Shown piece after piece: positions 1-19,664 of a stretch of DNA of 64,000 bases. The translations under genes and the position numbers were made by a program. Positions within the stretch are counted from its first letter, which is position 1; each line of letters begins with the position of its first letter. The DNA is from Clostridia bacterium (lineage in GTDB: Bacteria > Bacillota > TC1 > UBA5767): NCBI GenBank assembly GCA_016887505.1, contig CP069393.1, positions 2,069,001-2,133,000 of the forward strand. The letters run 5' to 3'. The notes under the pieces are model-generated. The model made no database searches. It worked only from the letters and a program-made list of their open reading frames with translations, and was not told the DNA's origin.

Positions 1-189
1 CCTTTTAATGCCTCAAGACGATTTGGAGAAGATTTTATAGATATATTTGAAGAAGGTAAACGCGACTTCTATATCGTAGATAAAGATATTCATACTGTGG
101 CCCGCTATGAGTTCACCAATATTGCTACTGGCAACAGCTTTGCAGCTGGAGAATTGCGAGAGGATAAATTAAAGAAATCTTTGTTCTAA
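1..189 (+). CDS. C-terminal end of a methenyl-H4MPT cyclohydrolase-like protein (partial)
   Basis: Frame 1 is open from the window edge to TAA at 187-189 and gives the last 62 residues of a protein whose start lies outside. The fragment has the pattern FG..F..IF, then DFY..D, then N..TG, then a final K.S, which I recall as the carboxy end of methenyltetrahydromethanopterin cyclohydrolase (Mch). That enzyme interconverts methenyl and formyl groups on a pterin carrier. Identification rests on a short remembered pattern and no alignment was run. It lies 34 bases before the flavin oxidoreductase in the same direction, so it probably belongs to the same operon. Confidence 0.5.
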   Translation, partial: PFNASRRFGEDFIDIFEEGKRDFYIVDKDIHTVARYEFTNIATGNSFAAGELREDKLKKSLF

Positions 190-223
190 GCATTGCTGGA
201 TAGATAGACAGGTGGGTGAAAGC

Positions 224-1366
224 ATGTCGCAACGTTACGATTATTTAATCATAGGCGCGGGAATCACGGGAACGTCGTTAGGAGCTAGGCTTTCTGCTCG
301 TGGCAAGACTGTGCTGATTCTCGACAAACAAGGGATTGCCGGTGGCGCTTCGGGAGGAAATCTAGGACAAATTTCACTGATGGATCGTTTCGAACCGTGG
401 CATCTAGAATTGGCCATGGAATCTTTGGACTTTTATGAAAAATTGGAAAAGAAGATTGCCATCGGCTACCGGCAGCATGGAGGTTCCATCTTGCTGATGA
501 AGCAAGACCAGATTGAAAGGGCTGAAGAAGTCCAAAAAATTCAGCAACCAAGGGGGCTTTCCATGGAACTATTGACCCCCAAAGAAGCAAAAACATTGGA
601 ACCGAGACTGAAAAAAGAAGGCTTAAATGCGATGGTTTATTGTCGGCAAGAGGGATCGGTAGACCCCTTGGCACTGAATTTTTATATGGCTGATATGGCT
701 GTAGCAAGTGGGGCTGAAATTCGCACTAGCGAATGTGTGATGGAACTTGTTCAATCTGCGCAAGGAATTGAGAAGGTTCTGACAGATAAAGGTACATATA
801 CAGCGGACACTGTAATCAATTGTGCTGGCGGTTGGGCGGAGCAGATTGCCAATCTGGTGGGAGATGAATTGCCTATTCGCTCCCATAAAGGAACGGCATT
901 TGTAACCCAACCCATGCCGAAATTTCTCACGACCACTTTGGTAGGCGGGGGATTCTTAATGGAGGATACCGGTGGGGATGCAGAAGACCTACGGATTGGT
1001 ACAGCCATTTGCCAACATGTTAACGGCAGTATAATCATTGGCCAAGCGACAGAAAAGACCATGACGGATGACCGCTCGATTGGCCGTGTCGGACTTGGAC
1101 AAACGGCAATCAATATGATGAGTTATTTTCCGGATCTAAGGAATGTGGACATTCTGAGGGCTTGGGCTGTTTCTACATCCTACTCGGATGACGGGAAACC
1201 GGTCATGGGATATAGCGAAAAGGTGAGCAACTTGTTTACGGTAGCTGGATTCAAGGGAGCATTTACTACAGCACCTGCTGTAGCAGACAGAGCCTCTAGA
1301 ATGTTGCTTTATGGTGAGCCTTTCGTTGCCGAGGCCGAACAGGGAAGGAAGCGTAATCAAGAGTAA
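224..1366 (+). CDS. DadA/DAO-family FAD-dependent oxidoreductase
   Basis: Predicted FAD enzyme of the D-amino-acid oxidase / glycine oxidase fold, 380 residues, which would oxidise a C-N bond of an amino acid or secondary amine. The dinucleotide-binding motif GAGITG is at residues 11-16, followed by the acidic end of the second strand (ILDK) and a GGASGGN stretch typical of the family. The carboxy part has the second FAD contact (VAGFKGAF). I chose ATG 224 over the in-frame GTG at 212 because GGTGGGTGA just upstream is then a ribosome site at normal distance. The stop overlaps the next start (TAATG). The substrate cannot be read from sequence; amidohydrolase neighbours suggest a step in breakdown of a nitrogenous compound. 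Confidence 0.85.
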   Translation: MSQRYDYLIIGAGITGTSLGARLSARGKTVLILDKQGIAGGASGGNLGQISLMDRFEPWHLELAMESLDFYEKLEKKIAIGYRQHGGSILLMKQDQIERAEEVQKIQQPRGLSMELLTPKEAKTLEPRLKKEGLNAMVYCRQEGSVDPLALNFYMADMAVASGAEIRTSECVMELVQSAQGIEKVLTDKGTYTADTVINCAGGWAEQIANLVGDELPIRSHKGTAFVTQPMPKFLTTTLVGGGFLMEDTGGDAEDLRIGTAICQHVNGSIIIGQATEKTMTDDRSIGRVGLGQTAINMMSYFPDLRNVDILRAWAVSTSYSDDGKPVMGYSEKVSNLFTVAGFKGAFTTAPAVADRASRMLLYGEPFVAEAEQGRKRNQE

Positions 1367-2142
1367 TGCGGATAGATATTCATGTGCACGATACTAAACC
1401 CATAGAATTGTTGCTGGAATCAATGGAGAAAAACCAAATAGACAAAGCCTTTGTGTGCTCTTCGGCTGTGGCCAAGGGTGAAAATGTGAAGACGCTGAAA
1501 GATGCTAAGATGGTGCTTGGAAATGTCGCAAGAGCACAAACAAAGGAAGGCAGCCAGCGCACCGTTCAAGAGGTAAATCGGGATTTGGCCGAAAAACTCG
1601 CGCCATACAAAGGAAAGCTATATGGATTTGGAAAGGTAGACTTATATGACCAAGATATAGAAGCACAAATGGCTTCTATCGTGGAATGTGGTCTTTATGG
1701 TGTCGGCGAAATCATCGGAATACATGAGCATGTAGAACTTCTAAGGCCGGTACTATCTTTTTCTTCCAAGCAAAAGACTTTTCCGATATTTATTCATTGT
1801 GATTTTCCTGTGGAATACGAGGACTTGGAAAACCTTTTCGATTTGATTGAAGAGTATCCCGATGCAAGAATTATTATTGGACATATGGGAGGCAACCACT
1901 GGATTAAGGCAGTGGAACGGGTCAAGGGTCTTACGAACTGTTTACTCGACGCCTCGGAAGTTGTAAATTATGTGCCATTTTATGTGGCCGTTGCTGAACA
2001 TCCGGATGTAGTAGCTTATGGCTCAGATTTCCCATGGGACCTTCAGGAAGTGAATCTAGCTCGCTTGAACAACATGGGACTGTCTAAAGAAGTGTATGCC
2101 CAGGTTATGGGTGAAAATCTTAGACGATTCATGGAGTGGTGA
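1366..2142 (+). CDS. Metal-dependent amidohydrolase, Amidohydro_2 type (first)
   Basis: TIM-barrel hydrolase or decarboxylase of 258 residues. Metal ligands are visible in order: HVH at residues 6-8, IHCDFP mid-protein, IGHMGGNH, and the final Asp in YGSDFPWD. Length and motifs fit the Amidohydro_2 family, which includes lactonases, amide hydrolases and aminocarboxymuconate-type decarboxylases; no reaction can be assigned. The start codon shares its A with the previous stop, so translation is coupled to the flavin oxidoreductase. The next gene is a second member of the same family, so the two may catalyse consecutive steps. Confidence 0.8.
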   Translation: MRIDIHVHDTKPIELLLESMEKNQIDKAFVCSSAVAKGENVKTLKDAKMVLGNVARAQTKEGSQRTVQEVNRDLAEKLAPYKGKLYGFGKVDLYDQDIEAQMASIVECGLYGVGEIIGIHEHVELLRPVLSFSSKQKTFPIFIHCDFPVEYEDLENLFDLIEEYPDARIIIGHMGGNHWIKAVERVKGLTNCLLDASEVVNYVPFYVAVAEHPDVVAYGSDFPWDLQEVNLARLNNMGLSKEVYAQVMGENLRRFMEW

Positions 2143-2144
2143 TT

Positions 2145-2984
2145 ATGAAAAAAATTGACGCACACGTACATTTGACGCCGCCTTGTATTGAAAAAAGATG
2201 TGAAGCGCTTAAGAAAACGGAACCGTATTGGCAGTTATTGGCGGATAGTCCGAAAAACAGTTTTACGGATGCAGAAGGATTGATAGCAGAAATGGATCGA
2301 ATCGGTATAGATAAGTCAGTAGTGTTTGGATTTTCTTTTTTGGACCCACTACTGTGCCGAGAGGTGAACGACTATACCTTGGATGCTATAAAAAGATATC
2401 CAGATCGGTTAATTGGATTCATGTCTGTATCGCCACATGACCACAATTTGGAATCCGAAATTGACCGTTGCCATGCGGGTGGCTTACGGGGAATCGGAGA
2501 GATGTTCCCGGATGGGCAGAAGTGGGATATAACAGATAAAGCGCACACCTCGCCTTTAATTGGACTCTGTGCGGAGAGAAACCTGCCGGTTATGGTACAT
2601 ACCAACGAACGAGTTGGCCACTATTATCCAGGTAAAGTTTCGACAACTCCGCTGGAAGCTTCAAGATTGGCAGAGCACCATCCTGATGCGACTTTTATCT
2701 TTGCGCATTGGGGTGGAGGACTTCCCTTTTATGAACTGATGAAAGAGATTCGTCATAATAATCGGAACGTCTACTATGACACGGCAGCAAGCATATTTTT
2801 GTATGATAAGGCTATTTTCCGAGTGGCAAGGGAATTGGGCGTTTTAGACAAGGTACTGTTTGCCAGCGATTATCCACTGGTTACACCTGAACGTTATTTT
2901 GACTACATTGATACTAGTGGCTTGAGCCAAGAGGAGCTTGAAGCAGTATATCATAAAAATGCAGAAAAACTATTGGGGGAATGA
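2145..2984 (+). CDS. Metal-dependent amidohydrolase, Amidohydro_2 type (second)
   Basis: 279 residues, second TIM-barrel amidohydrolase of the operon. Visible ligands are HVH at residues 7-9, VHTNE, FAHWGGG and the Asp in FASDYP. It is only loosely similar to the preceding protein, so a different substrate is likely. The start is ATG 2145, two bases after the previous stop, with GGAGTGGTGA as ribosome site inside the end of the upstream gene; the GTG at 2136 falls within that site and is unlikely. Function within the family (hydrolase versus decarboxylase) is open. Confidence 0.8.
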   Translation: MKKIDAHVHLTPPCIEKRCEALKKTEPYWQLLADSPKNSFTDAEGLIAEMDRIGIDKSVVFGFSFLDPLLCREVNDYTLDAIKRYPDRLIGFMSVSPHDHNLESEIDRCHAGGLRGIGEMFPDGQKWDITDKAHTSPLIGLCAERNLPVMVHTNERVGHYYPGKVSTTPLEASRLAEHHPDATFIFAHWGGGLPFYELMKEIRHNNRNVYYDTAASIFLYDKAIFRVARELGVLDKVLFASDYPLVTPERYFDYIDTSGLSQEELEAVYHKNAEKLLGE

Positions 2985-2988
2985 ATTT

Positions 2989-4332
2989 ATGATCTGGATA
3001 CAAAACCTGGACTATCTAATTCAGGATGCCGAACGAGTGCTATGTGGAGCAGATCTATTGATTGATGGCGACCGCATTGTTGCAGTAGGTACGGTTGATC
3101 CAGCGCAAGCAGGAAATGCCGAAATAATCTCTGGCGAGGGGAAAATCGCCATGCCGGGTTTCGTAAATACCCATACTCATCTCTACCAAAATATGCTCAA
3201 GGGTATGGGAGATGGGCTCAGACTAAAACCATGGTGTGAACAGGTGACCTTTCCTTTTGCCAGTATTATCCATAAAGAGGAACGGGAGACGGATGAACCT
3301 AAACTGGGATATCACTGGGCAGCCTTAGGTGCCATGGAAATGGTTCGCAGTGGCATTACTAGTTTTGTGGATATGGACATCGTGCAAGATGGTGTCTTGC
3401 AGGCGTGGCAGGACATTGGTGTTCGAGGGAATTTAGCACTGCAATTGGTGAATAAATGGGTTCCTAAAGAGCTGATGGTACCGGATGAAGTTAGAAAGAA
3501 AAAAGCATTAGACATCATTGAACGGTGGCATAAGAATGGTAAATTAACTGTTTCTTTGGCCCCGTCAACACCGTTTGCTTGTACACCCGAATTCCTTATG
3601 TGGATTAGGGATACAGCAAAAGAACGTAACTTAGAGATATTCATACATATCTCCGAAACCAAATGGGAGGTGGAACAAGCTAAGGATGAAACGGGGAATA
3701 CGCCATTTGGCTATTTGGAAGAAATGGGATTCTTCGAAAGGCCCGTACATGCAGTACATTGTGTCTGCGTGGAGCCTGAGGATATTGAGATTATGAAGAA
3801 ACGAAAGCTAGATGTGATTTATAATCCCAAGAGCAATGCGAAACTGGGAAGTGGCATAGCTCCTATTGGAACCTATCTAAAACAGGGGATTCCAGTGGCG
3901 GTTTCGACGGACGGTGCGGCGTCTAATGACTCACTGGACATGTTCGAAGAAATGCGCTTTGGACAGCTTCTACAGAAAGCCAGTGCTCAAAACCCACTGG
4001 AAGTTAGCGTCGAGGATATGTTCAATATGGCTACCAAAGAGGGAGCCAAAATGATGAATATTGACGCTGGTGTACTGGAGGAAGGCAAGCTAGCCGACCT
4101 AGTGTTGTTGGATGACAGAGGAGTACACATGCAACCGATCAACGGCGTTCTACAAACTGTATTTTACTGTGCTAAATCTTCAGATGTCGATACCGTTATC
4201 ATCGGCGGAGATATGGTTATGCAAGATAAGCAGTTTGTTACAGTGGATGAAACCGGGATTATAGATTCTGCGGTCGGTCTGAGTAACAAGGCCAAGGCCC
4301 AGGTTGGAAAAAAACTTGATGCGGATTTTTAA
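2989..4332 (+). CDS. Aminohydrolase of the SsnA / MTA-SAH deaminase / atrazine chlorohydrolase group
   Basis: 447 residues, composite-domain amidohydrolase that most often deaminates purine- or pterin-like rings. The small beta domain (residues 1-55) precedes the barrel; H62 and H64 in NTHTHLYQ, the HISETKWE strand with its catalytic Glu, HCVCVEPED and STDGAASND complete the mononuclear metal site. The start is ATG 2989 with GGGGGA just upstream, four bases after the previous stop; the longer frame from 2938 overlaps the upstream gene by 47 bases. Guanine, thioadenosine, cytosine-like or pterin deamination are all possible. In this operon a pterin-type substrate is my preferred guess. Confidence 0.8.
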   Translation: MIWIQNLDYLIQDAERVLCGADLLIDGDRIVAVGTVDPAQAGNAEIISGEGKIAMPGFVNTHTHLYQNMLKGMGDGLRLKPWCEQVTFPFASIIHKEERETDEPKLGYHWAALGAMEMVRSGITSFVDMDIVQDGVLQAWQDIGVRGNLALQLVNKWVPKELMVPDEVRKKKALDIIERWHKNGKLTVSLAPSTPFACTPEFLMWIRDTAKERNLEIFIHISETKWEVEQAKDETGNTPFGYLEEMGFFERPVHAVHCVCVEPEDIEIMKKRKLDVIYNPKSNAKLGSGIAPIGTYLKQGIPVAVSTDGAASNDSLDMFEEMRFGQLLQKASAQNPLEVSVEDMFNMATKEGAKMMNIDAGVLEEGKLADLVLLDDRGVHMQPINGVLQTVFYCAKSSDVDTVIIGGDMVMQDKQFVTVDETGIIDSAVGLSNKAKAQVGKKLDADF

Positions 4333-4347
4333 TGAGAGGGGTAAAAA

Positions 4348-5169
4348 ATGAGTATCCTAGACTATCATTATGGGGATTCTTTTGTACACAGGATGGATCC
4401 CAGGGTGAAGATGATTTTGTTGATTCTATTGACCATTGTCGTTTTCATGATTAGTAATTTTTATGTATTGGTTGCAATGTTTGCGCTAGTGCTATTAATT
4501 TGGAAAACGGCGTCATTACCTTTGAAGAATATAGTAAAGTACATGAAATTTTTGCTCAGTTTGGTTGCTTTTCTGATTGTCTTGCAGGGCTTATTCTTTT
4601 CCAGCGGAGACAATCCAGTCATTTTGCTGCATCCAATTATTCCTGATGTGGTACCTTTGATCGGGGGACACGGAACAATTTATTTAGATGGTATATTGTT
4701 TGGACTTATTTTGGGATTTAGACTCCTGACTCTAGTATGTATAATGCCAATTTTTGTCATGACCACTACGATAAGTGAGACTTCCTTGGGACTCGTTAAA
4801 CTGGGTATGAATTACAAGTATGCCTACATGACAACGACAGCGTTGAATCTAATTCCTACTCTGCAAGATGAAGCGAAGTTGGTGATGGATGCGCAGAAGA
4901 TGCGCGGATTCATGGTTTTTGAAACAGGTAAATTCATGGAGAAACTCCGAGCTTATAGCACACTAGTAGTGCCATTGGTTGTTGGAGCCATGCGCCGGGC
5001 CCAACTTATGGGTGTGGCTATGGAGGCTAGGGCTTTTGGGGCTATGAAGACTAGAACCTATCGAGAAGAGCTACATATGCAAACCAAAGACTTTGTTTAT
5101 GGAGCGATTGTTGCGCTTCTTTGTATTGGACTGGTGTATTTTAACAATCGTTTAGGGGGATGGTACTAA
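4348..5169 (+). CDS. ecfT: ECF transporter transmembrane component EcfT
   Basis: Integral membrane scaffold of an energy-coupling-factor importer, 273 residues, about five to six hydrophobic segments. The two cytoplasmic coupling helices that grip the ATPases are recognisable: DAQKMRGF and AMEARAFG carry the Ala-Arg signatures of the CbiQ/EcfT family. It is followed without gap by two ATPase genes, giving the usual T-A-A' module. The substrate-binding S protein is encoded 3 kb downstream (8344-9063), with a hydrolase between. An ECF module inside a catabolic cluster is likely dedicated rather than the shared housekeeping one, but that is inference. Confidence 0.88.
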   Translation: MSILDYHYGDSFVHRMDPRVKMILLILLTIVVFMISNFYVLVAMFALVLLIWKTASLPLKNIVKYMKFLLSLVAFLIVLQGLFFSSGDNPVILLHPIIPDVVPLIGGHGTIYLDGILFGLILGFRLLTLVCIMPIFVMTTTISETSLGLVKLGMNYKYAYMTTTALNLIPTLQDEAKLVMDAQKMRGFMVFETGKFMEKLRAYSTLVVPLVVGAMRRAQLMGVAMEARAFGAMKTRTYREELHMQTKDFVYGAIVALLCIGLVYFNNRLGGWY

Positions 5170-6041
5170 TGGGTACAATCATAGAAGCCAAAGATTTTAG
5201 CTACAATTATCCCAGAAGGGAAAATCAGGTTCTGAAGGATCTGAATTTCAAAGTAGAAGAGGGAGAATTTATTGCTATCATGGGTAGAAACGGTGCAGGT
5301 AAATCTACACTTTGCCAAGCACTCGATGGAGTAATTCCACATTTGCATGGGGGGTCAGTATGGGGCAATATCGTAATCGATGGTCTGGATACTCAAGATG
5401 TTGAAGTTGCGACGATGGCACAAAAGATTGGGATAGTCCTTGAAGACCCAGAAGCGCAGCTCTTTACAACTCGCGTGGATGATGAGATTGCCTTTGGTAT
5501 AGAAAACCTATGCCTACCTCGGGAAGAAATTATTGAACGGATTAAATGGGCTACCAAGGTAGTACGTTTGGAAGGATATGGCGATCGCGAACCGACAGCA
5601 CTTTCAGGAGGTCAAAAACAGCGTTGTGCAATTGCTGCCACCTTGGCAATGAAGCCTAAAATAATGGTGCTGGATGAACCGACATCGCAGTTGGACCCGA
5701 TTGGTACATATGAAGTATTTGACGTAATCAAGAGCCTAAAAGAGGAATACGGTATGACTGTATTGGTCACCACGCATAAAAGTGAACACATTGCACAATA
5801 TGCCGATAAAATAATGGTATTGGAGGATGGCAAAATCGTTGCATTCGATACACCGCAAGCAATCTTCCGTAATTCTGAATTATTAGAACATGTGGCCGTC
5901 AGACCGCCACAGGTATCCTTACTAGCCTCATATTTGAATAGCAAGGGGCAGCATATTGAGCGAACGGATTATCCAATTTTGATTGAAGAGGCGGAAGCCC
6001 TGATTCGCAAATTGACAGGAGGTGCTTCAAATGGCCAATAA
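5169..6041 (+). CDS. ecfA1: ECF transporter ATPase A component (first)
   Basis: ABC-type ATPase of 290 residues that powers the ECF importer. Walker A is GRNGAGKST, the signature is the canonical LSGGQKQR, and Walker B is MVLDEPTSQLDP, followed by the switch His in TTHKSEH. The start ATG 5169 overlaps the ecfT stop (TAATG); the in-frame GTG at 5160 lies inside ecfT. It overlaps the next ATPase gene by 11 bases, so both subunits are probably made in equal amounts as a heterodimer. Confidence 0.9.
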   Translation: MGTIIEAKDFSYNYPRRENQVLKDLNFKVEEGEFIAIMGRNGAGKSTLCQALDGVIPHLHGGSVWGNIVIDGLDTQDVEVATMAQKIGIVLEDPEAQLFTTRVDDEIAFGIENLCLPREEIIERIKWATKVVRLEGYGDREPTALSGGQKQRCAIAATLAMKPKIMVLDEPTSQLDPIGTYEVFDVIKSLKEEYGMTVLVTTHKSEHIAQYADKIMVLEDGKIVAFDTPQAIFRNSELLEHVAVRPPQVSLLASYLNSKGQHIERTDYPILIEEAEALIRKLTGGASNGQ

Positions 6042-6870
6042 CATTATTGAGGTAAAAGATCTTAGTTATTGTTATGTTGAAAACGGTCCTATGTGTGTGA
6101 ACAATATGAACATCAGCATTGAGGAAGGTTCTTTTGTCGGGATTATTGGGCAAAATGGTGCTGGGAAATCCACCTTGATGAAAAATTTAACTGGATTACT
6201 GCGCCCGACAAAAGGAAGCATATACATCAAAGGCGAAGATATTGCAGAGACACCGGTAGCTGTGATTGCCAATACACTAGGATATGTTTTACAAAATCCT
6301 GACCGCCAGCTATTTGCTGATACGGTACGGGAAGAATTGGCCTTTGGTCCCACAAACCAGGGTGTATCAGAAGAAGAAGTCAATAAGAGAATTGACTATA
6401 TCTTGGAATCGATTGGAATTATGCATTTGGCTGATGAATATCCTCCAGCCTTGTCCAAAGGGGACAGAGCGAAGGTGGTAATTGGTTCCGTGTTAGCAAT
6501 GGAACCTCAAATTATTATTTTGGATGAACCTACTGGTGGGCAGGACTATATTGGACGCTATCAAATTATGGATATTGCTCGGAAATTCCATGAGCGTGGA
6601 CATACCGTGGTTGTAGTTACCCATTCCATGGCACTAGTGGCGGAATATTGTGACAGGATTATTGTGTTATGCAATGCGGAAATATTACTTCAAGGAACCA
6701 GCAAGGAAGTTTTCTCACAACCCGAAGTTTTAGCAAAAACCTTTATTCGTCCTCCTCAGATTACGGAGCTAGCAAATAGGATGAAAGAAGAACTGAATAT
6801 TCATGAAACTTTGCTTAGTGTTGAAGAGATGGGAAATAAGGTGTTGGAACATATCCCGGAAGGAAAGTAG
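6031..6870 (+). CDS. ecfA2: ECF transporter ATPase A' component with atypical signature
   Basis: Second ABC ATPase, 279 residues, partner of the preceding one. Walker A is GQNGAGKST, the Q-loop is LQNPDRQ and Walker B is IIILDEPTGGQD. The ABC signature reads LSKGDRAKV instead of LSGGQ, so one of the two composite ATP sites in the heterodimer is probably degenerate. The ATG at 6031 has a strong AGGAGGT site at 6017-6023 inside the upstream gene. The sister subunit keeps a normal signature. Confidence 0.9.
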   Translation: MANNIIEVKDLSYCYVENGPMCVNNMNISIEEGSFVGIIGQNGAGKSTLMKNLTGLLRPTKGSIYIKGEDIAETPVAVIANTLGYVLQNPDRQLFADTVREELAFGPTNQGVSEEEVNKRIDYILESIGIMHLADEYPPALSKGDRAKVVIGSVLAMEPQIIILDEPTGGQDYIGRYQIMDIARKFHERGHTVVVVTHSMALVAEYCDRIIVLCNAEILLQGTSKEVFSQPEVLAKTFIRPPQITELANRMKEELNIHETLLSVEEMGNKVLEHIPEGK

Positions 6871-6881
6871 TAGGAGTAACA

Positions 6882-8216
6882 GTGAAAAAAGCGATGCAAT
6901 GTTTTGAAGAAATCAAAGATGACGTTGAAGTCTTAGCAAACAAAATCTGGAGTCATCCGGAAATTGCGCTAAATGAGTTCTATGCTGTCAAATTATATCG
7001 AGACTACCTTGAAGGGCAGGGCTTTAGGGTCTTGCCTGTAGAAGGCCTTTCGACTGCTTTGGTGGCTGAATATGGCTCTGGGCACCCCATTGTAGGTGTT
7101 TTGGGTGAATATGATGCTTTGCCTGGTTTGTCCCAAAAAGTCTCATCGAAACAGGAGCCTGTTGAAGAAGGCGGCTTGGGCCATGGCTGCGGCCATAACT
7201 TGTTGGGCGCATCTGCTGCTGTAGCTTGTGTGGCTGTGAAAAAGAGCATGGAAGAATCAGGTTTGACTGGAACAGTACGCTTCTATGGATGTCCGGCCGA
7301 AGAAATCGGTAAGGGCAAGGCCATCATGAATGAAAAAGGCGTGTTTGACGATCTCGATGCTTGTTTGACCTGGCATCCAGGCCCATGGAATGCCGTGACA
7401 GCTAGCAGATTAAGTGCACTCATGCGGGCGGAATTCTTTTTTCATGGTGTCGGAGCACACGCGGGTGCACATCCAGAACTAGGCCGTAGTGCCTTAGATG
7501 CTGTTGAATTGATGAACGTAGGGGCAAACTATTTAAGAGAACATATCCCTATGGGGACCCGCTTGCATTATATTATTACCAATGGGGGTCAAGTCGTTAA
7601 TACTGTCCCGGAGGATGCTAGTGTTCAGTATGTAATACGGGCACCGAAATCCAATATTGTCCATGAAGTATTTGACCGCCTTACGAAAGTGGCAGACGGT
7701 GCAGCGATGATGACAGAGACGTCTGTGCGAGTAGAATTACAATCGGATAACTATGATACTAAAAACAACATGGTATTAGAAGATTTGATGCATGAAGTTT
7801 ACCAAGAGTGTGGCGAAATTGAGTTCACACAGGAAGAAAAGAAACTGGCCGAAGAGCTAGTGAAAACGCTTCCAGAAAGCCACTACAACAATGCTCGATC
7901 AGTCTATGGTGTTGAAAAGGGGATCTATCTAGATGGTAAACCCCGACCCATTCTAGGACGGAATGAAACCTTTGGTGCATCATCGGATATAGGGCACGTG
8001 ACCTATAAAGTTCCGACGATGCAGTGTTCAGGAACATGCTTTCCTTTGGGTGTTCCACTACATAGTTGGCAGGCGACTGCGAGTGCTGGTTCGAAGTTTG
8101 GTGTTCGAGGTGCTAGGCATATGTCAAAGGTATTAGCATGTGGTTTGGAGCGACTTCTGTTGAATGAGAAACAAGTTCTTGAAAAGGCCAAACAAGAGTT
8201 TCTGCAAGATGATTAA
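6882..8216 (+). CDS. M20-family metallohydrolase, AbgB-like (aminobenzoyl-glutamate / amidohydrolase type)
   Basis: 444 residues, dinuclear zinc peptidase/amidohydrolase fold. Visible motifs are GEYDALPG with the first metal-ligand Asp, GCGHNLLGASA, EEIGKGK with catalytic and ligand Glu, HPGPWNA and, near the end, SSDIGHVTYKVP. The last feature and the length resemble AbgB, which splits p-aminobenzoyl-glutamate in Escherichia coli; other M20 amidases look alike, so the substrate is inferred. Start is GTG 6882 after an AGGAG site, 11 bases behind ecfA2. Its place inside an ECF transporter operon implies it acts on the imported molecule. Confidence 0.8.
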   Translation: MKKAMQCFEEIKDDVEVLANKIWSHPEIALNEFYAVKLYRDYLEGQGFRVLPVEGLSTALVAEYGSGHPIVGVLGEYDALPGLSQKVSSKQEPVEEGGLGHGCGHNLLGASAAVACVAVKKSMEESGLTGTVRFYGCPAEEIGKGKAIMNEKGVFDDLDACLTWHPGPWNAVTASRLSALMRAEFFFHGVGAHAGAHPELGRSALDAVELMNVGANYLREHIPMGTRLHYIITNGGQVVNTVPEDASVQYVIRAPKSNIVHEVFDRLTKVADGAAMMTETSVRVELQSDNYDTKNNMVLEDLMHEVYQECGEIEFTQEEKKLAEELVKTLPESHYNNARSVYGVEKGIYLDGKPRPILGRNETFGASSDIGHVTYKVPTMQCSGTCFPLGVPLHSWQATASAGSKFGVRGARHMSKVLACGLERLLLNEKQVLEKAKQEFLQDD

Positions 8217-8279
8217 ATTTTGCAGGAATCTAGCCTTTGATATAGAATTCATACTATGTTGTAAATAATTTGTTTTTTT

Positions 8280-8299
8280 CTCAAGAGCGCCAGCTTGAG
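8280..8299 (+). other. Small hairpin in the leader of the ECF S gene
   Basis: CTCAAG (8280-8285) and CTTGAG (8294-8299) form a six-pair stem with an eight-base loop, just after a run of seven T. It sits in the 127-base gap between the M20 hydrolase and the ECF S gene. It lacks a T-run on its 3' side, so it is not a good terminator. It may be a weak processing or attenuation element; no known riboswitch is seen. Confidence 0.25.
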
Positions 8300-8343
8300 A
8301 CGTTTCCTTATTGTTTTTTGGTTTTATAAGAGAGGTGACTATT

Positions 8344-9063
8344 TTGGCTGAAGCAAGAAAGTATGAAGGAAAAACTAACTTTGCCGTTTATGCGGTTTGG
8401 GCTGCACTCATTTCTGTAGCATCTTTATTACCTTCCATTCCTATGATAGGAACAGGAGGAACATTCAGCTTAAAAGCGATTGTATTGCCATTGTCTGGTA
8501 TTTTATTTGGACCAGCTGCCGGTGCTATCATTTGCGCAATTGGAGGCTTCATTGGACAAATGTTGGCTCCTCATACGGCATGGATGGGTATTGCGACTTT
8601 CATTACTGGAATTTTTACCGGAACTATTGCCGGATTTGTATCCCGCGGTAACTGGAAGATTCCATTGGGCATTTTGATAATTTTTACTGGCCTATGGCTC
8701 ACACATCCTATCGGTAGAGAAGCAATCATTTTCCCAGCAGTTTTCTATTCCTTGGGTGCAGTTACCATTATTATTGGTGGGATTTTCGCTAAGAAATGGT
8801 TGCTTGGTACAAACAATGTACTAAAAGGGGTAGCTATTTGGCTATCGTCTTTCTCTGGATTTGTTCTTGCTGCTGGCTATGCGAACTATATTGGCGGTCT
8901 GCTGATGTTGCAACTACCTGCAACAGTATGGGTTGGACTTACTTTTCTGTCTCCGATTGAGAGATCAGTTTTCTCTTTGGGCGCAGCCATTATAGGTATA
9001 CCATTATTGGTTGGTTTGCCGAAGATTGGTGTCTTTGTAGGCCCCAAACCTGAGGGAGAATAA
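8344..9063 (+). CDS. ECF transporter substrate-binding S component
   Basis: 239 residues, six or more hydrophobic helices with the small-residue-rich pattern of ECF S proteins (LSGILFGPAAGAI in the second helix region). It would bind the vitamin-like substrate and dock on the EcfT/A/A' module encoded at 4348-6870. The start is TTG 8344, placed by AGAGGTGA at 8331-8338; the longer frame from 8311 has no ribosome site. The specificity is unknown. Linkage to an AbgB-like hydrolase and deaminase-type enzymes suggests a folate/pterin-like compound. A terminator follows. Confidence 0.78.
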   Translation: MAEARKYEGKTNFAVYAVWAALISVASLLPSIPMIGTGGTFSLKAIVLPLSGILFGPAAGAIICAIGGFIGQMLAPHTAWMGIATFITGIFTGTIAGFVSRGNWKIPLGILIIFTGLWLTHPIGREAIIFPAVFYSLGAVTIIIGGIFAKKWLLGTNNVLKGVAIWLSSFSGFVLAAGYANYIGGLLMLQLPATVWVGLTFLSPIERSVFSLGAAIIGIPLLVGLPKIGVFVGPKPEGE

Positions 9064-9080
9064 AAAAGTTGCTGGCGCGA

Positions 9081-9108
9081 GTGCAGGAATTAATCCTGCA
9101 CTTTTTTT
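9081..9108 (+). terminator. Rho-independent terminator after the ECF S gene
   Basis: GTGCAGGA (9081-9088) pairs perfectly with TCCTGCAC (9094-9101) around a five-base loop, followed by seven T. It closes the transport/catabolic operon that starts before the window. Confidence 0.92.
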
Positions 9109-13880: not shown

Positions 13881-15551
13881 ATGCTTACAGATATTGAAAT
13901 CGCCCAACAGGCGAAGATGTTGCCGATTGTTGAAATCGCAAAAGGCTTGGGATTGTCAGACGATGATATCGAGCTTTATGGTAAGTACAAAGCTAAGATT
14001 TCCATGGAAACCATTAAAGGTCTTGCAGACCGTGAAGATGGAAAATTGGTTCTAGTTACTGCTATCAATCCTACCCCAGCTGGTGAAGGAAAAACTACTA
14101 CTTCAGTTGGCTTAACAGATGGCCTGAGAAAACTGGGCAAAAATGCAATGGTCTGCTTGAGAGAACCATCCTTAGGACCGAGCTTCGGTGTTAAAGGTGG
14201 AGCAGCAGGCGGTGGTATGGCACAAGTAGTCCCAATGGATGAAATCAACCTGCACTTTACAGGCGATATCCACGCCATTACGTATGCTCATAACCTATTG
14301 GCCGCAATGGTAGACAACAGCTTAAAGCAAGGCAATCCGCTGAATATGGATCCGACGAGAATTGTGTTCAGACGTGTTATTGACTTAAGTGACCGTGCTT
14401 TGAGAAATATTGTAATTGGCTTAGGCGGACCGGCACACGGAATACCTAGACAAGATGGATTCGATATTACTGTAGCCTCTGAAATCATGGCGATCCTTTG
14501 CTTGGCAGATGACTTGATGGATATGAAGAAGCGTTTTTCTGAAATCATCGTAGGTTACACTTATGACAGAAAACCGATTACTGCTGGAGATTTGGAAGCG
14601 CAAGGCGCGATGACACTTTTGATGAAAGATGCTATCAAACCAAACCTAGTACAAACATTGGAAAATACACCAGCCTTTATCCATGGTGGACCGTTTGCAA
14701 ATATTGCACATGGTTGTAACTCAGTTACTGCAACTAAGACTGCTTTGAAACTGTCTGATATTGTTGTTACAGAAGCAGGCTTCGGTGCTGACTTGGGTGC
14801 TGAGAAGTTCTTTGATTTGAAATGCCGTTTTGCAGGCCTTAAGCCTGATGCGACTGTTATTGTTGCTACCGTACGTGCCTTGAAAATGCATGGTGGAGTA
14901 GCTAAGGCAGATTTGGCTGAAGAAAACCTAGCAGCTTTAGAAGCTGGTTTTTCAAACCTTGAAAAACACATTGAGAACGTAGGAAAATTTGGTGTACCTG
15001 CAATCGTTGCAGTCAACAAGTTCCCGACGGACACCGATGCTGAAGTTGAACTCGTGATTGAGAAGTGTCAAAAAGCAGGTGTTGAAGTTGCTTTGTCAGA
15101 TGTTTGGGCAAAAGGTGGCGAAGGTGGTAAAGAATTAGCAGAGATTGTTCTGAAGACCATTGCTGAAAAACCGTCTAACTTCAAAGTGCTTTATGATGAA
15201 AAACTGCCAATCGTGGAAAAAATTGAAACCATCGCGAAAGAAGTATATGGCGCAAGTGGTGTAAATGTTGAAGCGGCTGCTATGAGAAGCATTAAGCAGT
15301 TCACCGATATGGGTTATGGCGAGCTACCAATTTGTATCGCTAAGACACAATACTCCTTGTCTGATGATGCTAAAAAATTGGGTAGACCGGAAGGGTTCAC
15401 AATTAGTATTCGTGAAGTCAGACTGTCTGCTGGAGCAGGATTCTTAGTGGCTATTTCTGGCAATGTAATGACGATGCCTGGTTTGCCTAAGAGACCGGCA
15501 GCATGCAACATCGATATTGATGAGAGTGGTGTAATTACTGGTTTATTCTAA
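13881..15551 (+). CDS. fhs: Formate-tetrahydrofolate ligase
   Basis: 556 residues, the standard size of the homotetrameric enzyme that makes 10-formyl-THF from formate, THF and ATP. The P-loop-like [15 protein letters not shown] is at about residues 63-77; [19 protein letters not shown] and the family block [10 protein letters not shown] near the end are exact. It is transcribed alone between two terminators. A TTGACA at 13782-13787 with an imperfect TTTAAA 17 bases on may be the promoter. It is the only Wood-Ljungdahl-type enzyme in the window, so acetogenesis is not shown; purine or glycine fermenters also carry it. Confidence 0.97.
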
Positions 15552-15563
15552 GAAAAGCAATAA

Positions 15564-15592
15564 AAGCGAACGCGAGAGCGTTCGCTTTTTTT
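15564..15592 (+). terminator. Terminator after fhs
   Basis: AAGCGAACGC (15564-15573) and GCGTTCGCTT (15578-15587) form a perfect ten-pair stem with a GAGA tetraloop, then T's. Confidence 0.95.
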
Positions 15593-15657
15593 AATGCCAG
15601 AATAGAAGGGGTATATGCGAAAAAGCGGATACAATGTCTAGCATAAAAGCCAATTGA

Positions 15658-15670
15658 GTTAATCGTTTAG
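15658..15670 (+). promoter_or_regulatory. Upstream LacI-type operator-like site
   Basis: GTTAATCGTTTAG is the reverse complement of the promoter-proximal operator at 15813-15826 apart from its last bases. A central CG flanked by AA/TT half-sites is the LacI-family operator form. It lies about 150 bases from the proximal sites, a distance suited to a repression loop by a tetrameric or paired dimeric repressor (inference). Confidence 0.5.
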
Positions 15671-15778
15671 TTATTTTATTCACAAGGCAGGAAAAGCCCA
15701 GCTAAAGAAGAATAGTAGAAGTTATATAGATGTCTAACAAGTTGCGATTTTTTTTATTTGAGTTGTTATGAACATCTT

Positions 15779-15791
15779 GTTAAACGTTTAA
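15779..15791 (+). promoter_or_regulatory. LacI-type operator (perfect palindrome)
   Basis: TTAAACGTTTAA at 15780-15791 is a perfect 12-base palindrome centred on CG, the classical LacI/CcpA-like operator form, 45 bases before the lacI-type gene. It most likely serves autoregulation. Confidence 0.65.
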
Positions 15792-15812
15792 ATCAATGGT
15801 AAACTAAAACAA

Positions 15813-15826
15813 GTTAAACGATTAAC
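15813..15826 (+). promoter_or_regulatory. LacI-type operator (promoter-proximal)
   Basis: GTTAAACGATTAAC is a near-perfect palindrome centred on CG, ten bases before the regulator start and overlapping the region where RNA polymerase or ribosomes would enter. It is 34 bases (about three helical turns) from the previous site, so the two sites face the same side. Confidence 0.65.
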
Positions 15827-15835
15827 GGAGGACAT

Positions 15836-16822
15836 ATGGCAACAATCAAGGATATTGCGGAGCGCGTTGGCGTCAGTACTTGCACAGTATCACGCTATAT
15901 TAACCGCAAAATTGTAGTGAAAGAGGAGACGGCCAAAAAGATAGATGAAGCCATCAAGGAACTCGACTATCATAAGAATTATATGGCGGTCTCTCTTAAA
16001 ACAAGGAGTAGCAAAATAATCGCGTTGGTGATTCCATCGCTGAAAAATGTTTTCTTTGCCGAGATTGCAGATAACATTGCATCGCGCTTGGAAAAAAAAG
16101 GCTATTCCATGATTACGTTCACGACAGACAATAATTATGAAAAAGAAATGGAAACCTGCGAGAGACTATTGGAAGTCGGTGTAGCTGGGGTTATCTTTAT
16201 GACCAAGCCATTCGACTTTCAAAACGACGATCATCTCGAGCGGCTTCGAAAACATAACATCGTGACCCTGATGATCAATCGCAATTTTGAACCAAAGAAT
16301 TATCCGAGTGTAAGCACGGATTTTAAAGATGGTGTTCAAAGGGCAACACGCTTGTTGATTGAAAAAGGATGCAAAAATATTGGCTTGATTGTAGGGGCCA
16401 AAAATCATCCTCAATCAGATATTTACCGAGAACCATTCATTGAAGTTATGCAAGATTCCGGATTTTCACCGGACTCCTATCACGTAAAAACTTGTCATTT
16501 TAGCCCAAAGGAAATGGAAAAGGTAACGGAGGAACTCTTGGATGATGGTGTAGATGCCATTTTCGGAATTTCGGACTTTATTACCTTGTCAGCTCTTAAG
16601 GTTATTGAGAAAAGGGGCTTCAAAATACCACAAGACATCATGTTGATCGGCTCTGGGAATACGCAATTTTCTGAGCTTGTTAATATTTCTTCTTTAGATT
16701 CTAGAACAGATTTGTTAGGTCAAAAGGGCGCTGAGATGCTCTTAGCATTGCTAGAGGGGAAAGAAACAAAGACTTTTATCCTAGTGAAACCAGATATTGT
16801 TGAGCGGGCATCAACGAATTGA
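15836..16822 (+). CDS. LacI-family transcriptional regulator
   Basis: 328 residues. The helix-turn-helix at residues 3-24 (ATIKDIAERVGVSTCTVSRY) and the hinge lead into a periplasmic-binding-protein-like sensor domain (ALVIPSLKNVFFAEI). The effector is probably a small metabolite such as a purine, nucleoside or sugar; it cannot be read from sequence. It precedes a molybdenum hydroxylase and nucleoside-type ABC operon in the same direction, so it is the likely controller of purine uptake and oxidation, and three operator-like palindromes lie in its own upstream region. Confidence 0.9.
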   Translation: MATIKDIAERVGVSTCTVSRYINRKIVVKEETAKKIDEAIKELDYHKNYMAVSLKTRSSKIIALVIPSLKNVFFAEIADNIASRLEKKGYSMITFTTDNNYEKEMETCERLLEVGVAGVIFMTKPFDFQNDDHLERLRKHNIVTLMINRNFEPKNYPSVSTDFKDGVQRATRLLIEKGCKNIGLIVGAKNHPQSDIYREPFIEVMQDSGFSPDSYHVKTCHFSPKEMEKVTEELLDDGVDAIFGISDFITLSALKVIEKRGFKIPQDIMLIGSGNTQFSELVNISSLDSRTDLLGQKGAEMLLALLEGKETKTFILVKPDIVERASTN

Positions 16823-16897
16823 ATTACGTGCACGATATTCTCTATTGGGATTGCTCAATCTGTACTTGGAGCAGTGAACAAAATGAAAGGCGAATCT

Positions 16898-17377
16898 ATG
16901 AATACAATCGAACTGAAAATTAATGGAAGAACCTATGAAGCCAAAGTGGAAAAGAATTATACCCTCCTGTATGTATTAAGAGAGTTATTAGATATTACAG
17001 GGCCTAAGGAAGGTTGTGGAACCGGAGATTGTGGAGCTTGCAAGGTGTTAATTGATGGCGAAGCAGTCAATTCCTGCACTACATTGGCAATCAAATGTGA
17101 AGGAAAAGAAATTGTGACGATTGAAGGCATAGCGGATGGTCCTAATTTGCATCAGATACAGAAATCTTTTGTCGAAAAGGGCGCAGTTCAATGTGGATTT
17201 TGTACCCCTGGTATGGTCATTTCAGCAAAAGCACTTTTGGATAAAAATGCTAAGCCAACTAGGGACGAGATTCGAGCTGCACTCCAAAATAATTTATGTC
17301 GTTGTACAGGATATGTGAAAATTGTAGAAGCGATTGAAGATGCTGCTGAGAAAATGGGAGGCGAAAACAATGAATAA
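16898..17377 (+). CDS. Molybdenum hydroxylase iron-sulfur subunit (XdhC/CoxS-like)
   Basis: 159 residues carrying two [2Fe-2S] clusters that pass electrons from the Mo site. The plant-type cluster has GCGTGDCGAC plus a later Cys; the second has CGFCTPGM and CRCTGY. Start is ATG 16898 with AAAGGCG six bases ahead; the in-frame GTG at 16874 has no site. It overlaps the large subunit by eight bases. In xanthine dehydrogenases and carbon monoxide dehydrogenases a separate FAD subunit usually accompanies this pair; none is present here. Confidence 0.92.
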   Translation: MNTIELKINGRTYEAKVEKNYTLLYVLRELLDITGPKEGCGTGDCGACKVLIDGEAVNSCTTLAIKCEGKEIVTIEGIADGPNLHQIQKSFVEKGAVQCGFCTPGMVISAKALLDKNAKPTRDEIRAALQNNLCRCTGYVKIVEAIEDAAEKMGGENNE

Positions 17378-19664
17378 AGATTTGCGTATAGTTGGAGGAA
17401 GCCGCCCCATCTTTGATGCATACAATAAGGTGACGGGCAGAACTAGCTACACAAATGATATGAAGTTTCGCAATATGCTCTATGGCAAACTGGTCTTATC
17501 TGAAAAAGCCCATGCTCGTGTAATCTCGATAGATACTAGTGAAGCAGAAAAGATGGATGGAGTCGTAGCCATTGCCACACCATTCAATACACCAAACAAG
17601 AAATACAATAGTGCACTTCGTTTTGCAGACCACGATATTCCCAGGACTGAGACCATCTTTTCTGAGGTAGTCCGTTTTGTAGGTGACAGGGTATGTGCAG
17701 TTGCTGCTGTTGACCAAAAAACAGCCGATCGGGCTGCGAAGCTGATACGGGTTGAATATGAAGAATTGCCTGCAGTGCTATCCATAGAAGAAGCCTTGGC
17801 GGAGGATGCAATCCAATTGCATGACAATGTGAGCAACCGCCTTAATGAGGTCACCAATCAAGTGGGGGACGTTGAGAAAGGCTTTGCCATGGCGGACCAT
17901 ATCTTTGAAGATGAATACAGGACGCCGATTGTGAGCCCTATGGCAATGGAAAACCACGTGTGCATTGCAGATTTTGACGAGCAGGGTAAACTGACCGTAT
18001 ACTCCAGCACCCAAAATGCTTTTGCCATTCGAAACACCTTAAGTGATGTCTTCGATATGCCGCAAAGTAAGGTAAGAGTAGTTAAACCAACTTTAGGGGG
18101 AGCGTTTGGAAGTAAAATCCCGGCGGTGCTAGAGGGACCGGCTGCTGCCTTGTCTATGATGACGCACAGGCCTGTAAAGATTAATCTAACCCGTAAAGAA
18201 AATCTGATTGCAACGAGGACTAGACACGGCTCGATCATTCGAATCAAGACAGGAGTCATGAATGATGGAACGATTGTGGCACAGCAATTAAATGCACTGA
18301 TTAATACTGGCGCTTATGTAAGCGCAGCCTATAATGTTATTGGAGCGATGAGCCATAAGGTATTCAAGACCTACAAGATTCCCAATATGGTATATTTTGG
18401 AACACCGGTGTTGACGAATTTACCGATTGCTGGGGCCATGAGGGGCTATGGATCTCCACAAGCGATCTTTGCCCAACAGCGGCAACTACATGCCATAAGT
18501 CAAAGACTAGGGATTGACATCGTTGAACTGCAACGAAAGAATCTAGTTCGCCCGGAGGATGTGGATTTAGAGAAGGTAGGTAATCCTAGGCCCTTGGATT
18601 GTATGGAGCGAGGATTGGAGCTATTTGACTGGAAAGCTAAAAATAAATGGAAGTTAAAAATAAAAGAAGAAAATAATTTAGATTTAAGGAAGGAACATTC
18701 AGATTCAGCTCGAAAGATTAAGAGAGGAATTGGCTTTGCCATTGGTTGCCATGGGAATGGCGTTTTTGGGGCTCACCGTGATTTCATAGGTCTAAGGCTT
18801 AAATTGAACGATGATGGAACCATGATTTTACAGACTGGGACCCACGATATGGGCAATTCCTTAATTACGTCTCAAATGATGATTGTGGCTGAAGAACTGG
18901 GTCTTGAAGTTGAGGATATCGCTGTTGTGGAATCTGATACGGATTTGACGCCATGGAATCTCGGAGATTACTCAAGCCGAGGCGTATTCGTAACTGGTGC
19001 AGCCTGCATCAAGGTAGCTGGTAAGATGCGGGAAAAACTTTTGTCACTGGCGTCTGAGATGTTGGAAGAACCAGTAGGTAGTCTAACTCTCCTTGAAGGA
19101 AAGAAAGTGAAAGGTCTAGCTGGCAGAGAAGTTACTTTTGCTGATTTACTACTTTACTCCCATAGAGAACATGAGGAAGATGTAATGGTTTCTGCCTCCT
19201 ATGGTTCTATAGCTGGCAGAACTTCTTTCGGAGCACACTTTGCACAAGTGGAAGTGGATACAGAGTCTGGTACGGTTCGAATTCTTGACTATGTGGCTGT
19301 GCATGATGTAGGCCAAGCAATTAACCGAATGTCACTGGAAGGACAACTAGAAGGTGGTATCCAAATGGGCTTGGGTTATGCACTTTCTGAAAAGATGGAG
19401 TTTGATGAGAAAGGCAGATTGAAGAATAACAATCTGAAAAAGTACAAGATGTTCAAGGCATCAATGATGCCTGACATAAAGATTGATTTTATTGAGGAAG
19501 GAGAGACCCCCGGACCGTATGGGGGAAAGAGCATTGGCGAATGTGCTACAGTACCAGTTGCACCAGCCGTTGTCAATGCGATTGCTAATGCTTTGGAGTA
19601 TGATTTTCACTGCATGCCGCATCTCGCGGATGGAATGTTGAAGATCGCAGAATGCGAGTCATAG
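17370..19664 (+). CDS. Xanthine dehydrogenase-family molybdopterin-binding subunit
   Basis: 764 residues, the catalytic Mo-pterin subunit that hydroxylates an N-heterocycle. The amino-terminal Ald_Xan_dh_C domain begins GRTSYTNDMKF; Mo-pterin motifs include GGAFGSK, AMRGYG, GTHDMGNSL and, near the end, GGKSIGE with the likely catalytic Glu. GGGAGGCG at 17355 supports ATG 17370. Xanthine or a related purine fits the nucleoside-type transporter downstream, but nicotinate or aldehyde substrates cannot be excluded. The FAD subunit is missing from the operon; the FMN reductase at 21913 could supply an electron exit (inference). Confidence 0.9.
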   Translation: MNKDLRIVGGSRPIFDAYNKVTGRTSYTNDMKFRNMLYGKLVLSEKAHARVISIDTSEAEKMDGVVAIATPFNTPNKKYNSALRFADHDIPRTETIFSEVVRFVGDRVCAVAAVDQKTADRAAKLIRVEYEELPAVLSIEEALAEDAIQLHDNVSNRLNEVTNQVGDVEKGFAMADHIFEDEYRTPIVSPMAMENHVCIADFDEQGKLTVYSSTQNAFAIRNTLSDVFDMPQSKVRVVKPTLGGAFGSKIPAVLEGPAAALSMMTHRPVKINLTRKENLIATRTRHGSIIRIKTGVMNDGTIVAQQLNALINTGAYVSAAYNVIGAMSHKVFKTYKIPNMVYFGTPVLTNLPIAGAMRGYGSPQAIFAQQRQLHAISQRLGIDIVELQRKNLVRPEDVDLEKVGNPRPLDCMERGLELFDWKAKNKWKLKIKEENNLDLRKEHSDSARKIKRGIGFAIGCHGNGVFGAHRDFIGLRLKLNDDGTMILQTGTHDMGNSLITSQMMIVAEELGLEVEDIAVVESDTDLTPWNLGDYSSRGVFVTGAACIKVAGKMREKLLSLASEMLEEPVGSLTLLEGKKVKGLAGREVTFADLLLYSHREHEEDVMVSASYGSIAGRTSFGAHFAQVEVDTESGTVRILDYVAVHDVGQAINRMSLEGQLEGGIQMGLGYALSEKMEFDEKGRLKNNNLKKYKMFKASMMPDIKIDFIEEGETPGPYGGKSIGECATVPVAPAVVNAIANALEYDFHCMPHLADGMLKIAECES

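Follow-up and report, generated by a model that had tools for sequence, protein, structure and literature searches.

Which compound is taken up and processed by an operon that joins an energy-coupling factor (ECF) importer to a methenyltetrahydromethanopterin cyclohydrolase (Mch) and several amidohydrolases? This operon, here operon A, lies across the left edge of the window, a stretch of 64,000 nucleotides (bases 2069001-2133000) from the single-contig 2.56-Mb genome of a Clostridia bacterium (CP069393.1; completeness 99.2%), whose genus includes its nearest named relative, Peptococcaceae bacterium UBA5767. Its gene content and that of related clusters suggest that a reduced pterin, probably of folate type, is imported and broken down step by step, a reading to which we give about an even chance. 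A substrate that is a pterin of some kind is fairly likely; folate in particular is a tentative assignment.

Gene content and anatomy of operon A

Operon A consists of twelve genes in one direction, beginning 2.3 kb upstream of the window. Profile searches recovered, each in its place, the parts that the initial annotation had named from the window's letters: a DAO-type oxidase, two Amidohydro_2 enzymes, a COG0402-type amidohydrolase, an M20 hydrolase and a complete ECF importer. Its account of one direction and coupled starts holds as well: the intergenic gaps are -14, 9, 22, -1, -7, 4, 15, -1, -11, 11 and 94 bases, hence -14 to 22 except for the 94 before the last gene, and a 10-pair terminator follows. 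By this anatomy the twelve genes are one unit. The unit is larger than first described, as the upstream flank (L002; window position is L002 position minus 10000) holds a GntR/UTRA regulator, a methyltransferase gene (MeTr) and the remainder of Mch, which is full length. An Rfam search returned tRNAs only and no riboswitch. The features are:

L002 7071-7090: terminator-like site upstream of the GntR/UTRA gene
about -2319 to -1576 (L002 about 7681-8424), + strand: GntR/UTRA regulator, outside the window
-1589 to -795 (L002 8411-9205), + strand: MeTr, methyl-tetrahydrofolate methyltransferase-like, outside the window (PF00809)
-785 to 189 (genome 2068215-2069189; L002 9215-10189), + strand: Mch_A, methenyltetrahydromethanopterin cyclohydrolase family (PF02289, TIGR03120)
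1-189, + strand: C-terminal end of Mch_A, the part inside the window
212-1366, + strand: DAO-type FAD amine oxidoreductase (PF01266, 196 bits)
1366-2142, + strand: Amidohydro_2 enzyme a (PF04909, 48 bits)
2136-2984, + strand: Amidohydro_2 enzyme b (PF04909, 123 bits)
2989-4332, + strand: COG0402 deaminase/amidohydrolase (TRZ; PF01979, 216 bits)
4348-5169, + strand: ECF transporter T component, CbiQ-type (PF02361, 119 bits)
5169-6041, + strand: ECF ATPase 1 (TIGR04520, 273 bits)
6031-6870, + strand: ECF ATPase 2 (TIGR04521, 258 bits)
6882-8216, + strand: M20 amidohydrolase (TIGR01891, 250 bits, over the cut-off)
8311-9063, + strand: ECF S (substrate-binding) component, PF07155 group (42 bits, cut-off 26.7)
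9079-9103, + strand: intrinsic terminator ending operon A (10-pair stem, 5-base loop, T run)

Mch_A belongs to a clade apart from one-carbon Mch

The short fragment that opens the window had been taken for an Mch tail, and it does align to Mch: it is the C-terminal end of a complete protein of 324 residues, Mch_A, which matches PF02289 (332 bits), passes the equivalog cut-off of TIGR03120 (266.2 bits; cut-off 228.8) and finds the Methanopyrus kandleri Mch 1QLM in phmmer (5.8e-66). The catalytic Arg and Glu, presumably R183 and E186 in Archaeoglobus fulgidus numbering, are kept, with VCSRTVE (QVCSRTVE) opposite VSARVVE of M. kandleri. The host genome encodes three Mch proteins, 38-45% alike; the other two lie in a second locus, locus B.

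Passing that equivalog cut-off is what one would expect if Mch_A were an ordinary one-carbon (C1) enzyme linked to tetrahydromethanopterin (H4MPT) that stands by chance in a peptidase/deaminase operon. The tree speaks otherwise. Among 52 sequences (a quick tree with some long branches, from which a class of short paralogues was left out as too divergent), the fhc-linked Mch and that of M. kandleri are split from the operon-A-type Mch by a branch with SH-aLRT support of 100. The second, non-fhc clade holds 39 of the 52, with the catalytic R and E conserved in its members. Four groups can be told apart inside it: A (operon A), B1, B2 and C (FolB-linked); their inner order is not reliable, given the quick tree and its long branches. 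Moreover, no fhc or mtdB genes are found near Mch_A, and the sole FTR relative of the genome is divergent (134 bits, under the equivalog cut-off of 292.6). We rejected Mch_A as part of the bacterial H4MPT C1 module because it has no fhcABCD/mtdB neighbours and does not group with the fhc-linked Mch; chance placement of a C1 enzyme is hardly credible. By its place in the tree, then, Mch_A is not the known H4MPT one-carbon enzyme here and belongs to a clade separate from the C1-pathway Mch.

Genes beside Mch in Bacillota

To compare neighbourhoods we used 398 Bacillota genomes, the window's relatives included, 27 of which carry Mch-family genes; a stretch below is the DNA fetched around an Mch gene, and counts are by stretch or by genome. 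The neighbourhoods are of two kinds. One comprises fhc/mtdB stretches, the known C1 module (8/11). The other is importer-linked and degradative, with varying sets drawn from an importer (ECF or BMP-type ABC), COG0402, FMN reductase, FolB, RibD_C, SDR/E1/E2, DAO, AOR, iron alcohol dehydrogenase and xanthine dehydrogenase genes; MetH-like genes also recur beside second-clade Mch. A COG0402 gene lies near second-clade Mch in 20 of 31 stretches (15 of 18 genomes) and near C1-type Mch in none of 11, while the chance expectation per 20 kb in the host genome, with its 17 such places, is about 12%. The Fisher p of 0.0002 for this comparison is indicative only, since stretches that overlap or share a genome are not independent, and these loci also supplied the reference proteins. 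FMN reductase (15/31 versus 0/11) and RibD_C (5/31 versus 0/11) are distributed likewise, and FolB is found in 8/31 versus 3/11, its presence near C1-type Mch likely reflecting cofactor synthesis.

To our knowledge Mch, MeTr and FolB act only with pterins, and it is their joint recurrence in importer-linked clusters that points to a pterin substrate. The host genome has two FolB genes, one in locus B and one adjoining a COG0402 gene (L140). HPPK was not found in this complete genome, although it is present in 11 of 14 control genomes; the FolB genes thus lack a folate-synthesis partner and are unlikely to serve folate synthesis.

In FolB-type clusters a catalytic Mch is directly adjoined by the short divergent paralogue mentioned above, Mch2 (L082 13668-14390; also L089, L090, L036, L107, L108 and L122). 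The catalytic Arg and Glu are not present in the four Mch2 examples aligned, and Mch2 is possibly a second subunit.

Conservation of operon A

Genomes of the same genus keep operon A whole apart from contig ends (L045/L031), and one of them, CSMAG_109, has two partial copies (L033, L034). Further away, a stretch from Clostridia AS08sgBPME_225 (L046) has GntR, Mch_A (75% identical), DAO, the ECF set, both Amidohydro_2 genes and the COG0402 gene, together with [2Fe-2S], pyridine-nucleotide-type and BFD genes, which we infer to be of the kind that partners DAO in amine dehydrogenases. Stretches from Lachnospiraceae and Oscillibacter assemblies (L047/L109 and L048/L106) have Mch_A (71-72%), DAO, COG0402 and one Amidohydro_2 gene, and in them a BMP-family importer replaces the ECF importer. 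Since gene order is kept in the genus and partly in distant Clostridia, operon A is not a chance array, and the set that the initial annotation had singled out is conserved to this extent. Recurrence in the distant relatives defines a core of Mch_A, DAO, COG0402, Amidohydro_2 and an importer. The M20 gene and the free-standing MeTr were most plausibly added in the window's genus. DAO is not obligatory, as Mch_A also occurs with no DAO nearby (L085, L032). In L109, a fusion of homocysteine methyltransferase, pterin-binding and B12 domains (15225-17666) lies inside the Mch_A/DAO/COG0402 cluster, which fits a C1-removal step such as that assigned to MeTr and Mch.

The importer and the enzymes of operon A

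The T component, two ATPases and S component in one operon indicate a dedicated ECF importer. Orthologues of the S protein, 53-89% identical, close operon A in the same genus, and one is present in L046. Its Pfam family, PF07155, is named after riboflavin, and BMP-like riboflavin importers exist; we set riboflavin aside by reasoning, as it has no amino group to remove and would leave FolB without a role.

An importer of this type also suits vitamin salvage, in which a cell unable to make folate would import folates and trim C1 groups and glutamates to a usable form. Vitamins are the usual cargo of ECF importers, the S protein gives a weak FolT-family signal, HPPK is missing as described, and the window encodes a formate-H4folate ligase (13881-15551, named by reading its translation). 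However, the cofactor would not survive the DAO, the deaminase and the two Amidohydro_2 enzymes, relatives have BMP-type importers in place of ECF, and trimming folate needs no Mch clade of its own. We consider salvage quite improbable.

MeTr scores 229 bits against PRK07535, exceeds the PF00809 cut-off and matches an AcsE-type methyltransferase in phmmer (6e-44). Of the AcsE pocket residues, which we take to be D75, N96, D160 and N199, D75, D160 and N199 are kept and position 96 is D instead of N. Both Mch_A-linked MeTr proteins (L002 8411-9205; L109 15225-17666) have this D, and the MeTr of locus B keeps N; the D may mark a different pterin. Hydantoins and creatinine had been raised as alternative substrates that upstream genes might reveal. 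The gene found there encodes a pterin-binding enzyme, with no hydantoin or creatinine gene, and the pterin reading survives this comparison.

The nearest solved chain to the DAO is 1Y56_B, deposited as sarcosine oxidase, followed by glycine oxidases and dimethylglycine dehydrogenases; enzymes of this group use secondary amines, sarcosine and dimethylglycine among them, as substrates. For the M20 enzyme the nearest solved proteins are HmrA and Xaa-Arg dipeptidase, with YxeP and AbgB next. The label AbgB-like is therefore sound at the level of the M20 family but does not amount to evidence for p-aminobenzoyl-glutamate. Orthologues of both Amidohydro_2 enzymes keep the HxH, H, H, D ligand motifs, and enzyme b bears a remote likeness to ACMSD-type decarboxylases and hydrolases.

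The COG0402 enzyme keeps HxH/H/H/D in six orthologues and falls under every NCBIfam equivalog cut-off. Its earlier naming after SsnA and guanine deaminase had to be dropped: the score for SsnA is 172 bits against a cut-off of 444, and a true SsnA (661 bits) is encoded at another locus. A role as a deaminase of methylthioadenosine (MTA), S-adenosylhomocysteine (SAH) or 5'-deoxyadenosine was rejected too (PRK06038, 353 versus 609 bits; PRK07228, 313 versus 522 bits); L137, at about 1.09 Mb, holds a candidate with a better score (513 bits), though this too is under the cut-off. We propose that the operon A enzyme may be a pterin deaminase or ring hydrolase. The window holds a second COG0402 gene at about 38638-39924.

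The true SsnA belongs to a typical uric acid cluster at 2170592-2181070 of the genome (L149), with YgeY (698 bits), a carbamoyltransferase, YgfK (1480 bits) and xanthine dehydrogenase genes. Together with the 17 COG0402 places it marks the host as a heterocycle specialist, and so raises the possibility that operon A handles another N-heterocycle (purine-, deazapurine- or pyrimidine-like), with Mch and MeTr re-tooled, Mch for example to open formamidine rings like the imidazole of purines. SsnA, itself a COG0402 enzyme, opens a ring rather than deaminates in the reductive urate pathway (PMC12507026), and BMP-family transporters and xanthine dehydrogenase- and dihydropyrimidinase-like genes recur near the second Mch clade. 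Against this, the genome already has a uric acid pathway at another locus, profile searches found no XDH, YgfK or dihydropyrimidinase in operon A, and FolB, RibD_C, MeTr and Mch jointly indicate pterins. Such a substrate is unlikely, if still to be reckoned with. As purine use is covered by the uric acid cluster, operon A would add to a heterocycle-using way of life rather than provide its purine route.

Related loci in the host genome

Locus B (genome 562038-577581; L006 2038-17581) reads E3, LOG, MeTr, FolB, GntR, SDR, Mch, E1a, E1b, three-lipoyl E2, Mch: two Mch genes enclose the 2-oxoacid dehydrogenase-like genes E1a, E1b and E2, an SDR accompanies them, and E3, MeTr and FolB lie upstream. 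The arrangement suggests side-chain removal to an acyl-CoA. Elsewhere in the order the locus is conserved too (L037, L038); it is accompanied there by a BMP importer and a lipoate-ligase-like gene and, in L037, by a COG0402 gene. A broken locus-B-type cluster with SDR, COG0402 and Mch in pieces (L042 3826-10897, G005:C1) is probably a recent loss. Downstream of locus B (580001-587000, L007), a pseudouridine-type kinase and a glycosidase stand with an ECF importer, and two SAM-hydroxide adenosyltransferase-like genes come next (names from reading translations).

Locus C (genome 322200-346800; L092, L112) has a BMP importer, corrinoid and MtmB-like proteins, ECF proteins, a UroD/MtaA-type methyltransferase and an FGGY (xylulokinase-like) kinase, as well as a COG0402 enzyme, the FTR relative, an LsrF/DhnA-type aldolase and two dehydrogenases. 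Mch, COG0402, DAO and xanthine dehydrogenase genes of another genome (G576) have relatives of fhcC, fhcA and ftr downstream of them (L124 13680-17353). Given these two cases, FTR/FHC families may have followed Mch into such clusters.

Loci B and C also bear on whether the substrate could be H4MPT, or a relative of it, from methanogens. DAO would then cleave C11-N10, and the SDR and E1/E2/E3 of locus B would turn the remaining acetyl side chain into acetyl-CoA. Mch is by family an H4MPT enzyme, locus B joins two of them to the required SDR and dehydrogenase-like complex, and the FTR relative sits in a third locus. Yet similar clusters turn up in assemblies of Lachnospiraceae and Oscillibacter, typical gut families; H4MPT offers the M20 enzyme no acyl-glutamate amide; and the only cargoes of ECF S proteins known to us are small vitamins and metals. 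We regard this substrate as distinctly unlikely.

A proposed pathway

We propose that operon A, under GntR control, serves the catabolism of a reduced pterin, which is most likely of folate type and may carry C1 groups. The dedicated ECF importer would take up the pterin. C1 units would next be harvested by two enzymes: MeTr, with a corrinoid protein as acceptor of an N5-methyl group, and Mch, which would yield a formyl group by hydrolysis of an N5,N10-methenyl bridge. The DAO flavoenzyme could then oxidise the C-N bond of the C6 side chain, giving an arylamine (the p-aminobenzoate part in folate) and a pterin aldehyde, and M20 could split the acyl-amino-acid (glutamyl) amide. Finally, the COG0402 enzyme might remove the 2-amino group or open the ring, and the two Amidohydro_2 enzymes might hydrolyse or decarboxylate later products. 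Folate would be favoured over other pterins because DAO fits the C9-N10 secondary amine, M20 an acyl-glutamate, and MeTr and Mch the N5-methyl and methenyl forms.

The initial annotation had suggested that a folate- or methanopterin-like molecule is taken up and dismantled. The Mch fragment, the MeTr upstream, the FolB, RibD_C and MetH-like neighbours and the lack of HPPK support this in part; we infer every substrate, the step order, and breakdown rather than salvage from sequence, which fixes no substrate. Several observations weigh against the proposal. The S protein misses the FolT family cut-off (TIGR04518, 23.6 bits; cut-off 60), and its AlphaFold model is too poor for use (pLDDT 54). 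MeTr carries the D at AcsE N96, and operon A has no corrinoid protein of its own. The ECF-linked L046 cluster has no M20 gene other than a 28% relative that lies just past the COG0402 gene, which leaves the place of the amide step in the core uncertain. The xanthine-dehydrogenase- and dihydropyrimidinase-like neighbours of the second clade fit other N-heterocycles. Lastly, there is no ready reason for Mch in the FolB or biopterin-like SDR/E1/E2 loci, whose likely substrates have no N10; either second-clade Mch does another pterin-ring hydrolysis, or these loci act on C1-bearing pterins too.

Taken more widely, the clusters might represent a patchy but widespread undescribed family of anaerobic pathways for pterin breakdown (folate, neo-/biopterin, methanopterin) in Bacillota. 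Duplicated H4MPT-pathway enzymes, in the host three Mch branches and an FTR relative, would have turned pterin-catabolic, each branch with its own means of C6 side-chain removal: FolB or aldolase, SDR with a 2-oxoacid-dehydrogenase-like complex, or DAO. We put this forward tentatively, at somewhat less than even chances.

Comparison with known systems

The open-access literature yielded nothing relevant on pterin, biopterin or methanopterin catabolism in anaerobes, an absence that is no proof, and a breakdown route with an Mch branch outside its usual role is apparently not yet described. The bacterial H4MPT/methanofuran C1 module comprises fhcABCD, mch and mtdB (PMC5020050). Operon A shares with it the Mch family, catalytic residues included, but its Mch is of another clade, adjoins no other module gene and has importer and degradative neighbours. 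Mch in bacteria is usually read as a sign of H4MPT-linked C1 metabolism; if our reading is true, a large Mch branch has another role. Compared with AcsE and other methyl-H4folate:corrinoid methyltransferases, the operon A MeTr aligns over its full length and keeps three of the four pocket residues, but it has the N to D change at position 96, and the operon has no corrinoid protein.

The reductive uric acid cluster (XdhD, YgfK/UacX, SsnA, HyuA, YgeW, YgeY, YgeX; PMC12507026), of which the host has one at about 2.17 Mb, likewise achieves anaerobic heterocycle breakdown by clustered COG0402 and M20-family enzymes. Operon A differs in having Mch, MeTr, DAO and an ECF importer and no Xdh, YgfK, HyuA or YgeX.

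Little is known of what becomes of folates and other pterins in the gut or in anoxic habitats. A precedent is the aerobic folate catabolism of Variovorax, whose carboxypeptidase G and pterin deaminase we take to belong to the M20 and COG0402 families. In Variovorax sp. F1, an aerobic soil bacterium, folic acid is catabolised by a metallopeptidase that frees glutamate, carboxypeptidase G, and a pterin deaminase that acts on folate (PMC9513972). Operon A resembles this route at family level, with M20 and COG0402 enzymes; the accessible part of that paper describes only the two steps, glutamate loss and deamination, and no importer, Mch, MeTr, DAO or Amidohydro_2. If the proposal is true, the recurring anaerobic, importer-linked gene set would add to this described route a set of candidates for the genes behind the loss of folates and pterins in the gut and in anoxic habitats.

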